From NCBI RefSeq assembly GCF_014170305.1, contig NZ_LZZT01000038.1, positions 1-64,000 on the forward strand: 64,000 bases of DNA, read 5' to 3'. The position numbers and the translations under genes are program-made. The stretch comes from Achromobacter sp. UMC71. Its GTDB lineage: Bacteria > Pseudomonadota > Gammaproteobacteria > Burkholderiales > Burkholderiaceae_B. Every line of letters starts with the position of its first letter. Within the stretch, counting starts at the first letter, position 1. Under the pieces are notes generated by a model that was given only the letters and a program-made list of their open reading frames with translations, was not told the origin of the DNA and searched no databases. Positions 12,124 through 15,078 of the stretch are shown here, one piece after another.

Positions 12124-12621
12124 ATGACGTCAGTTTTTGGTATTGCGGGCCGCTCGGGCAGCGGCAAGACCACCTTGATCGAAGCGATGCTGCCGCTGCT
12201 GGGCGCGGCCGGGCTGAAGGTCAGCGTGATCAAGCACAGCCACCATGATTTCCAGCTCGAGCCGCCCGGCAAGGACAGCGCGCGCTTTCGACTGGCTGGG
12301 GCGCAGGAAGTCATGGTGGCGTCGCCGTTCCGCTATGCCATCGTGCACGAATTGCGCGGTGCGCCGGAACCCTCGCTTCAGGACCAGATCGCGCGCTTGG
12401 CGCCGGCCGATCTGGTGCTGGTCGAAGGCTTCAAGCATGCCGGGATCCCGCGGATCGAGGTCTACCGGCCCGCTCTGGGCAAGCCGCCACTGCACGAGGG
12501 TGACGCGGCATTTCTGGCGGTCGTGACCGATGCCGCGCTGAACACGGCATTGCCCTGCCTGCCGTTGAACCAGCCGGCCGTCGTGGCCGAGTTCATCCGG
12601 CGGGCGGTGGGGCGAGCTTGA
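12124..12621 (+). CDS. mobB: Molybdopterin-guanine dinucleotide biosynthesis adaptor MobB
   Basis: A GTP-binding protein that assists MobA in attaching GMP to molybdopterin, giving the cofactor of DMSO-reductase-family enzymes. The Walker A motif GRSGSGKT occupies residues 9-16, followed by the family signatures [10 protein letters not shown], a [12 protein letters not shown] segment and [17 protein letters not shown]. At 165 residues it has typical length. ATG 12124 has GGAG at a good distance. MobA is not adjacent. The ubi genes follow 125 bases downstream; many molybdoenzymes serve anaerobic respiration, which suits the company. Confidence 0.92.
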
Positions 12622-12697: not shown

Positions 12698-12739
12698 TTG
12701 ATCTGCGACAAGGCCGCGCCGCCGGCCGGCCCCTAGACT
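12698..12739 (+). promoter_or_regulatory. FNR-type class II promoter of ubiUVT
   Basis: TTGATCTGCGACAA (12698-12711) matches TTGAT-N4-GTCAA with one mismatch. A -10-like hexamer TAGACT lies at 12734-12739, its centre 32 bases from the centre of the box, the geometry of an FNR site at -41.5. Transcription would begin near 12746, so the ubiU mRNA would be almost leaderless with ATG at 12747. Confidence 0.65.
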
Positions 12740-12746
12740 GGCCGGC

Positions 12747-13763
12747 ATGCATATCCGAACCTCTCCCCTAGAGCTCGTCGCGCCGGCAGGCAGCCTGGCC
12801 GCGCTGAAGGCGGCGATCGAGGCAGGCGCCGATACCGTCTACCTGGGCCTGAAGAACGCCACCAACGCCCGCAACTTCGCCGGGCTCAATTTCACCGAAA
12901 AAGACATCCGCGCAGGCGTCGAACTGGCCCACGCCAGGGGCCGCCAGGTGCTGTTCGCGATCAATACCTTCGTGCAGCCCGGCCGCGGCCAGGAATGGCG
13001 CGAGGCGGTCGATGCCGCGCACGCCTTGGGCGCCGACGCCGTCATCATGGCCGATGCCGGGTTGCTGGGCTACGCCCGCGATCGCTACCCCGAGCTGCGC
13101 CTGCACCTGTCGGTGCAGGGCTCGGCCACGCACGCCGACGCCATCGAGTTGATGAAAGAACAGTTCGGCATCCGCCGCGTCGTGCTGCCGCGCGTGCTGA
13201 CCCTGGCCGAGATCGCGCGCATCTGCGCCAGCGTCAGCGTCGAGGTCGAGGTGTTCGGCTTCGGCAGTCTGTGCGTCATGGCCGAGGGGCGTTGCCTGCT
13301 GTCGTCCTATGCCACGGGCGCCTCGCCCAACAACCAGGGCGTCTGTTCGCCGGCCAGCGCGGTGCGCTGGGTGGAGCAGGACGGCCGCCTGGACGCGCGC
13401 CTGAACGGCATCCTGATAGACCGCTACGAACCCGGCGAGGCCGCTGCCTATCCCACGCTGTGCAAGGGCCGCTTCCAGGTCGACGGCCATGCCGACCACG
13501 CGCTGGAAGAGCCCACCAGCCTGAACGCCATTGGCCTGCTGCCGCGGCTGGCGCAGATGGGCGTGTCGGCCGTGAAGATAGAAGGGCGTCAACGCAGCCC
13601 GGCGTATGTGACGCAGGTGGTGTCCACGCTGCGCGCGGCGCTGGACAGCGCGCACGCCGGCCCTAGCCGCTATTCCCCCCGCCCCGAATGGAACGCCATG
13701 CTGGCGCGCCATGCCGAGGGTTCCCAAGTCACGCAAGGCGCATTCGAACGTCCATGGAAATGA
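12747..13763 (+). CDS. ubiU: Ubiquinone anaerobic biosynthesis protein UbiU (U32 family)
   Basis: Forms a heterodimer with UbiV that hydroxylates ubiquinone precursors without oxygen, using prephenate as oxygen donor in E. coli. The 338-residue protein is a peptidase-U32-family member. Four cysteines, 176, 183, 200 and 239, have the spacing 7-17-39 of the E. coli UbiU [4Fe-4S] ligands. The N-terminus LVAPAGSLAALKAAIEAGAD is typical. ATG 12747 sits almost at the inferred transcription start. It overlaps ubiV by four bases, and ubiT follows, the standard order in many proteobacteria. Confidence 0.93.
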   Translation: MHIRTSPLELVAPAGSLAALKAAIEAGADTVYLGLKNATNARNFAGLNFTEKDIRAGVELAHARGRQVLFAINTFVQPGRGQEWREAVDAAHALGADAVIMADAGLLGYARDRYPELRLHLSVQGSATHADAIELMKEQFGIRRVVLPRVLTLAEIARICASVSVEVEVFGFGSLCVMAEGRCLLSSYATGASPNNQGVCSPASAVRWVEQDGRLDARLNGILIDRYEPGEAAAYPTLCKGRFQVDGHADHALEEPTSLNAIGLLPRLAQMGVSAVKIEGRQRSPAYVTQVVSTLRAALDSAHAGPSRYSPRPEWNAMLARHAEGSQVTQGAFERPWK

Positions 13764-14650
13764 AACCCAAGGCTTTCCGCATTTCGGCCGGTCCGCTGCT
13801 GTATTACTGGCCGCGCCAGCGCACGCTGGATTTCTATGCGTCGCTGGCCGACAGCCCGGCCGATATCCTCTATGTGGGCGAAACGGTCTGTAGCCGGCGC
13901 CACGAGCTGCGCGCCGACGACTGGCTGGACCTGGCGCGCGACCTGCGGGCCGCGGGCAAGGACGTGGTGCTGTCGGCCCGCACGCTGATCGAAACCGGCG
14001 CCGAGGCTACGGCGCTGCGGCGCCTGTGCGAGCAGCAGGGCTTCATGGTGGAAACGGGCGAGGTCGGTGCGCTGCGTCACCTGGGCGGCCGGCCGTTCGT
14101 GGCGGGCCCGCACATGAACGCCTATCACGGCGGCACGCTGGAATGGCTGGCCGCAAGGGGCGCGGCGCGTTTCGTGGCGCCGTTGGAAATGCATGTGAAT
14201 GCGCTGGCCCGGTTGCTGGCCGAACGCCCGTCGGGCCTGCAGGCCGAGATCATGGTGTGGGGCCGCATGGCGCTGGCGTTCTCGGCGCGCTGCTTTACCG
14301 CCCGGCACTTCCGGCTGAACAAGGACGACTGCGGTTTTCGCTGCATCGAGCATCCGGACGGCCTGGACATGCGTACCCGCGAATCGCGCGAATTCCTGGC
14401 GATCAATGGCATACAGGTGCAATCGGCCGCCTGCCTGGACTTGCTGGACCAGGCCGCGTATCTGGCCGACCTGGGCGTGCAGGTATTGCGCGTCAGTCCG
14501 CAGTCGGCCGGCACGCTGGACGCGATCGCCGCGCTGGACGCGGTGCGGCGCGGCCAGGCGCCGGCCGATGTGGCGCCGCCCGTCGGCATCGGCCGCTGCA
14601 ACGGCTATTTCCATGGCCAATCGGGCATCGCCTGGCAGGAGCGCGCATGA
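13760..14650 (+). CDS. ubiV: Ubiquinone anaerobic biosynthesis protein UbiV (U32 family)
   Basis: Partner of UbiU in oxygen-independent ubiquinone hydroxylation. It is a shorter U32 protein of 296 residues. The Fe-S ligands are visible: a Cys in GETVCSRRHEL near residue 37 and the trio in ARCFTARHFRLNKDDCGFRC, whose 13 and 4 residue spacing equals that of E. coli UbiV. ATG 13760 forms an ATGA overlap with the ubiU stop; ATG 13754 in the same frame is an equal alternative. It ends in an ATGA overlap with ubiT, so all three genes are translationally coupled. Confidence 0.93.
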   Translation: MKPKAFRISAGPLLYYWPRQRTLDFYASLADSPADILYVGETVCSRRHELRADDWLDLARDLRAAGKDVVLSARTLIETGAEATALRRLCEQQGFMVETGEVGALRHLGGRPFVAGPHMNAYHGGTLEWLAARGAARFVAPLEMHVNALARLLAERPSGLQAEIMVWGRMALAFSARCFTARHFRLNKDDCGFRCIEHPDGLDMRTRESREFLAINGIQVQSAACLDLLDQAAYLADLGVQVLRVSPQSAGTLDAIAALDAVRRGQAPADVAPPVGIGRCNGYFHGQSGIAWQERA

Positions 14651-15078
14651 GCGGCGCTGGATGGAATGTTCCTGCGGCCGTGGTCCGCCTGGGCTGCCGG
14701 CTGCCCGCGCCGCTGCTGTCGTTGCATGCCGTGGCCGGGCTGGAATTGGCGCGGCGCCTGAAATGGCTGACTCCGCCGCCGGAGCTGGATGGGTACAGCT
14801 TCGCCATCACGCTGGAAGACCTGGGCTTGCGCAGCGGCTTTCAGGTCCGGCGCGGGGCGTTCCGGCCGCGCTGGGACCGGTCGCCTTGCGAACTGGAGCT
14901 GGGCGCACGTTCGGCGGACCTGCTGGCCCTGATGCGCGAAGAGACCGACGCGGATACGCTGTTTTTCCAGCGCCGGTTGCGCATATCGGGGGATACGGAG
15001 CTGGGCCTGATCGTGAAGAACTGGCTGGACGCGGCGCCGCGCCCGGCCTGGCTGCAACGGCTGGGGGCTGCGCGCTAG
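14647..15078 (+). CDS. ubiT: Ubiquinone anaerobic biosynthesis accessory factor UbiT (SCP2 domain)
   Basis: A lipid-binding SCP2-domain protein needed for oxygen-independent ubiquinone synthesis, the anaerobic counterpart of UbiJ. The 143 residues contain an N-terminal hydrophobic stretch and the SCP2 core ending in DTLFFQRRLRISGDTELGL, the conserved RRL-GDTELG segment of the family. It starts at an ATGA overlap with ubiV and closes the operon. The next genes converge on it from the other strand, with no obvious terminator in the 55-base gap. Confidence 0.9.
   Translation: MSGAGWNVPAAVVRLGCRLPAPLLSLHAVAGLELARRLKWLTPPPELDGYSFAITLEDLGLRSGFQVRRGAFRPRWDRSPCELELGARSADLLALMREETDADTLFFQRRLRISGDTELGLIVKNWLDAAPRPAWLQRLGAAR

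Follow-up and report, generated by a model that had tools for sequence, protein, structure and literature searches.

A predicted FNR-type class II promoter placed directly before the ubiU start codon in Achromobacter sp. UMC71

The ubiUVT locus of Achromobacter sp. UMC71 raises the question of whether an FNR-activated promoter can lie so close to ubiU that the mRNA begins at the start codon itself. We examined this using the window, the whole stretch of 64,000 nucleotides that was analysed, together with the rest of the genome (6.34 Mb in 60 contigs, rated 100% complete) and related loci.

The ubiUVT genes and the sequence upstream of ubiU

The products of ubiU, ubiV, and ubiT scored above the cut-offs of their NCBIfam models (Table 1). 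The identity of the window UbiU was 54% to E. coli UbiU and 96% to that of Achromobacter sp. ASV32, and the identity of UbiV to its E. coli counterpart was 37%. Cysteines 176, 183, 200, and 239 of UbiU aligned with E. coli 169, 176, 193, and 232 at identical spacing, and cysteines 46, 180, 193, and 197 of UbiV aligned with E. coli 39, 180, 193, and 197. The earlier note had held that both proteins keep the E. coli spacing, which was borne out for UbiU and failed for the first spacing in UbiV (134 vs 141 in E. coli). We take the aligned cysteines, UbiU C176 set apart, to be cluster ligands. UbiU C176 is reported as a cluster ligand in the text of PMC10470549. Family scores and cysteines thus support the view, also put forward earlier, that the O2-independent ubiquinone pathway looks intact. 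No match was obtained when UbiU was used in a search of solved structures. The reading frames overlap by 10 nt (ubiU/ubiV) and 4 nt (ubiV/ubiT), which suggests that translation of ubiU, ubiV, and ubiT may be coupled.

Table 1 Features of the ubiUVT locus and of other genes discussed in the text.
Feature	Position	Strand	Remarks
NrdD (anaerobic ribonucleotide reductase)	123-2135	minus	456.6 bits, cut-off 326
mobB	12127..12621	+	TIGR00176, 144.9 bits, cut-off 76.2; upstream neighbour, outside the promoter
FNR-like box TTGATctgcGACAA	12698..12711	+	centre 12704.5; 8/10 vs TTGATN4ATCAA
-10-like element TAGACT	12734..12739	+	centre 12736.5; 4/6 vs TATAAT, with T1, A2, and T6 kept
Predicted transcription start	12746..12747	+	placed by geometry, upstream of or at the ubiU ATG
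ubiU	12747..13763	+	338 aa, stop included; NF047963, 532 bits, cut-off 440
ubiV	13754..14650	+	298 aa; NF047965, 350 bits, cut-off 275
ubiT	14647..15078	+	143 aa; NF047962, 101 bits, cut-off 46.9
Shortened ccoI/FixI-like ATPase	G000:C59:5996-6967	minus	window's genome; loci L096 and L168

The spacer between mobB and ubiU is 125 nt long. Within it, the centres of the FNR-like box and the -10-like element are 32 nt apart, in agreement with the earlier note, leaving 22 nt between the two elements, and a further 7 nt separate the -10 from the ATG. With the -10 placed at -12 to -7, transcription would start at base 12746, giving a leader of 1 nt and a box at -41.5; when the A of the ATG was taken as +1, the box would lie at -42.5, so the predicted leader is 0-1 nt. 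The box is thus located near -41.5 and overlaps the place of the -35, as expected of a class II promoter, and the -10 stands directly before the start codon, as expected of a leaderless gene. The second half-site of the box, GACAA, departs from ATCAA. A scan for -35 plus -10 pairs found none, which has no bearing on a promoter with a -10 only. The Shine-Dalgarno (SD) pairing value of ubiU was weak (-3.4), with values of -7.3 for ubiT and -3.0 for ubiV. A GC-rich inverted repeat encloses the -10; it was rejected as a working element because it is absent from L012.

Conservation of the layout and position of the start codon

For comparison, the best 80 of 554 loci encoding a relative of UbiU were used, all of which were examined. 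Because this sample comprises the nearest 80 loci and is rich in Achromobacter, its fractions are not natural frequencies: 29 of the 80 had the leaderless layout (5-8 nt from the -10 to the ATG), 35 had a promoter fitting class II but with a leader, 13 had no site that fits, and three were put in neither class (L032, with 10 nt from the -10 to the ATG, L036, and L042), 51 of these wider loci thus being without a clear leaderless layout. The leaderless loci were from Achromobacter (13), Undibacterium (6), Ralstonia (3), Bordetella (3), Chitinimonas (1), and metagenome genomes (L020, L028, and L071), where L020 was labelled by eye from its sequence, with the result in view, because the script had picked another box. 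The distance from the box to the ATG was identical in the 13 Achromobacter loci. In the leaderless relatives the gap between box and -10 was 22 or 23 nt, L032 excepted, and the -10 read TAGACT, CAGACT, TACACT, TACCAT, TAACAT, TAGTCT, or CACCAT. Most of the loci with a leader belonged to Cupriavidus and Neisseriales-type genera, the others to Massilia and a few more. In these, the first start codon, GTG in three and otherwise ATG, lay 27-53 nt from the -10, as measured by the script in 33 loci; the leader label of L048 and L050 was given by eye or from close kin, with the result in view, because the script had picked another box. The boxes before Cupriavidus ubiU were weaker and of the TTGCG type.

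In Achromobacter, Bordetella, and Ralstonia, 12 codons separate the ATG from the PAG motif of the protein, compared with 8 codons in Undibacterium, and the distance from the -10 to the ATG stayed at 5-8 nt despite this variation. Across these loci, the ubiU ATG is held at a near-constant spacing relative to the -10 and not to the protein core. Among 14 Achromobacter sequences, all 6 columns of the -10 and 9 of the 14 columns of the box were invariant, compared with none of the 60 columns from -110 to -51. Mean SD pairing was -1.0 in the 29 leaderless loci and -4.9 in the leadered group (27 of its 35 loci), with overlapping ranges. The comparison across loci makes it well supported that ubiU is nearly leaderless, and the earlier placement of the start codon at the first transcribed base agrees with the predicted start and with the 29 similar loci. 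We consider it probable that ubiU is transcribed from an FNR-activated class II promoter with an mRNA starting at the AUG or one base before it.

The main alternative is that the promoter is activated by FNR but the working mRNA has a leader, owing to a start farther upstream, read-through from mobB, or initiation at a later codon, for example codon 8. Such an arrangement is seen in the 35 relatives with a class II promoter and a leader, and a second ATG occurs at codon 8 in L010, L011, and L023. Furthermore, E. coli ubiUV is activated by FNR through the site F1, which is of the TTGAT type and is stated to lie 36 nt upstream of the start, according to the text of Arias-Cartin et al. 2023 (PMC10470549). 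The centre of F1 is 87 nt from the E. coli ubiU ATG, and the E. coli mRNA therefore has a leader. In the window, however, codon 8 is CTA, and no start codon other than the first ATG was found from the -10 to the core. Codons 2-12 in Achromobacter, codons 8-12 included, vary mostly at third positions (10 of 11 codons, vs 5 at first and 2 at second positions), the SD pairing at the ATG is weak, and the distance from the -10 to the ATG is shared by several genera. We regard a leadered working mRNA as unlikely on this evidence.

A tree of UbiU proteins, made by a quick method with no bootstrap, with one row 23% filled and long branches flagged, had one part of 53 rows that contained 30 of the 31 leaderless rows, along with 18 leadered and five other rows. 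The leaderless label requires six changes on this tree, gain and loss being indistinguishable. The three Ralstonia UbiU proteins (L013-L015) grouped with those of Alcaligenaceae and not with those of Cupriavidus (L033-L047), and their loci share the leaderless layout; a transfer of the ubiUVT operon possibly lies behind this placement.

The window's family was taken to be Alcaligenaceae from the NCBI names of close loci, and 61 of its genomes were sampled. UbiU was encoded in 18 of them (E<=1e-80), and the leaderless layout was present in four of the 18 loci (L198, L199, L200, and L203), the other 14 having a leader, a different site, or none fitting; the layout therefore marks one UbiU lineage and not the family. 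Twelve family genomes (L204-L215) carry another UbiU lineage, with 59-64% identity to the window UbiU. These proteins were placed elsewhere in the tree, and their FNR sites were leadered, other, or not fitting.

The regulator, chance expectation, and a second gene

The locus L107 encodes an FNR with 40% identity to E. coli FNR. Its cysteines 14, 17, 23, and 116 aligned with E. coli 20, 23, 29, and 122 and are presumably the cluster ligands. The protein scored 225.2 bits against the NCBIfam Fnr subfamily model NF008365, just under the cut-off of 228, the next best model giving 89.8. The FNR of this genome looks intact, and geometry, conservation, and the FNR cysteines together strongly support an FNR-type class II promoter before ubiU. 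Another regulator of the CRP/FNR family, for example one responding to NO or redox state, might use the site instead of the oxygen-sensing FNR, since five Crp-type HTH matches in the genome exceeded the Pfam cut-off and the half-site GACAA is atypical. We hold this to be quite improbable: L107 was the best HTH match among the proteins examined and has all four cysteines, ubiUV of E. coli is under FNR control (PMC10470549), and the survey of Pseudomonadota in PMC11707229, in the section available, predicts an FNR motif upstream of 1180 of 1566 ubiU genes.

The chance expectation was estimated by simulating the 125-nt spacer with a first-order model. Of the runs, 0.24% gave a fitting -10 at the required distance and 0.3% an 8/10 box at any position, and none of 400,000 gave the joint layout. 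The box alone is common, with 28 matches of at least 8/10 in the window (both strands, palindrome-like sites counted twice), and the box with a class II -10 occurred there only once. A chance resemblance in a GC-rich spacer, with the true promoter elsewhere, is scarcely credible: it could draw on these 28 boxes and on a -10 of only 4/6 inside a GC-rich inverted repeat, but it is opposed by the simulated joint layout, the conservation footprint in the 14 Achromobacter sequences, the recurrence of the layout in five named genera, and the loss of the repeat in L012.

Genome-wide, the box followed by 21-23 nt and TANNNT gave 10 matches vs 0 for a reversed control. A long frame began with an ATG 6-7 nt past the -10 in two of the ten, namely ubiU and a ccoI-like gene. 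When the ATG was included in the pattern, three matches vs 0 in the control were obtained, these two and L105. The latter locus (L095/L105, G000:C45:293910-293963) has a class II-like FNR site before a gene for a universal-stress-type protein. It was rejected as a leaderless case, as its ATG is 9 nt on and a likelier start is 45 nt later, about 54 nt past the -10. A general leaderless habit of the genome was likewise rejected, none being seen in 458 kb (394 kb of the 6.34 Mb genome plus the window), where, with a crude gene caller and first ATGs only, a -10 at offsets 12-14 preceded 7 of 233 first ATGs vs an expectation of about 5.5 based on the average over other offsets, with no excess.

The leaderless pattern gave 70 matches vs 13 in the control among the 61 family genomes. 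Of 29 such loci examined, 15 preceded the same gene, one preceded ubiU, two preceded other frames of more than 100 aa, and 11 preceded short frames only; chance matches are therefore common. The recurrent gene, a shortened ccoI that is also the ccoI-like gene of the window's genome (Table 1), encodes a P-type ATPase-like protein about 320 aa long, and it was present in 39 of the 61 genomes. In loci from 30 of these 39 genomes (L168, L169, and L216-L243), box and -10 preceded the gene in 26, and four had no fitting site. The ATG was 6-8 nt past the -10 in 23 loci and 10-11 nt past it in three, and the box was a perfect palindrome in 23 of the 26 promoters. All 30 proteins lacked DKTG and had CPC, the membrane part being kept, and a ccoN-like motif was found within 1.4 kb downstream in 28 loci; by eye, ccoS- and ccoN-like genes were identified after the shortened ccoI of the window's genome. 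Elsewhere in the order, frames were 476-1181 aa long among the matches listed, and DKTGT was present in all four checked. The shortened ccoI looks like an ATPase minus its catalytic domains, kept beside ccoS/ccoN. As an independent case, it gives the best support for real leaderless class II FNR promoters in this group. It is a tentative, even doubtful, extension that a few deliberately leaderless low-oxygen genes (ubiUVT and the shortened ccoI of the cbb3 cluster) are driven by FNR in the family and in related groups, selection having locked their ATG to the transcription start. On this doubtful reading, oxygen control would work at two levels, with FNR producing the mRNA and leaderless initiation allowing its translation when growth and ordinary initiation slow.

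Proposed mechanism, known systems, and physiology

The layout with its conservation, the gene identities, and the FNR cysteines are observed here, and from them we infer FNR binding and activation, the exact start, the mode of initiation, and the physiology. In the proposed mechanism, a drop in oxygen would allow the FNR of this genome, with its presumed [4Fe-4S] cluster, to bind the box near -41.5. Bound FNR would activate RNA polymerase at a class II promoter consisting of a -10 without a good -35, and transcription would begin one base before the ubiU AUG or at its A. The resulting mRNA would have no Shine-Dalgarno leader, and ribosomes would initiate directly on the 5' AUG, with ubiV and ubiT following via the overlapping frames. 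UbiU-UbiV, assisted by UbiT as an accessory factor, would then carry out the O2-independent hydroxylation of ubiquinone precursors, so as to keep ubiquinone available for low-oxygen or anaerobic electron transport. Such a mechanism would connect FNR-mediated oxygen control with leaderless translation, fields usually considered separately, in an operon kept in several genera whose leadered relatives would serve as natural controls.

FNR control is established for ubiUV in E. coli and widely predicted in Pseudomonadota, and leaderless mRNAs have been described in Burkholderiales. The E. coli system, as described in PMC10470549, resembles the one predicted here in its FNR activation and in a box of the TTGAT type immediately upstream of the promoter, but its ubiUV mRNA has a leader and its ubiT is transcribed divergently from promoters of its own, whereas ubiUVT lie on the same strand in the window. 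Same-strand ubiUVT is among the main gene orders in the Pseudomonadota survey, the relevant section of which presents median distances in a figure and mentions neither a -10 element nor leaderless starts (PMC11707229). In Burkholderia cenocepacia, a TA-rich promoter motif is described directly before start codons, transcription of 72 genes beginning at the start codon and that of a further 42 within 10 nt, among them 24 tRNAs (PMC4603805), and 4.67% of the primary starts of Cupriavidus metallidurans are given as leaderless (PMC7563307). The available text of these two studies describes no FNR-linked or low-oxygen group of leaderless genes, and that of PMC4603805 contains neither FNR nor anaerobic. 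Among the literature titles listed, with most subscription journals outside the scope, none concerned a leaderless ubiUVT FNR promoter or the shortened ccoI. What may be new is the conserved combination of the leaderless and class II FNR layouts.

The earlier note had assigned the operon to ubiquinone-based anaerobic respiration and had considered mobB and nrdD as fitting an anaerobic life style. Both genes are present, although neither decides the type of respiration, and the first claim has weakened. In profile searches of the genome, all matches to NarG, NapA, and NirK fell below the cut-offs, and MenA had no match. Nitrate respiration as the partner pathway is thus not supported, and low-oxygen respiration or S/N-oxide reduction becomes likelier. 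The same direction is indicated by a TorA/BisC-type reductase (L245; 978 bits vs a cut-off of 1018, its frame being taken from the first ATG and perhaps too short) and by the shortened ccoI beside ccoS/ccoN, which has the same promoter layout; both point to S/N-oxide or micro-oxic respiration. Ubiquinone may be the sole quinone of this organism. The likely role of UbiUVT here would accordingly move from nitrate respiration to low-oxygen respiration, with use in respiration via cbb3, or in S/N-oxide reduction, appearing the likelier.
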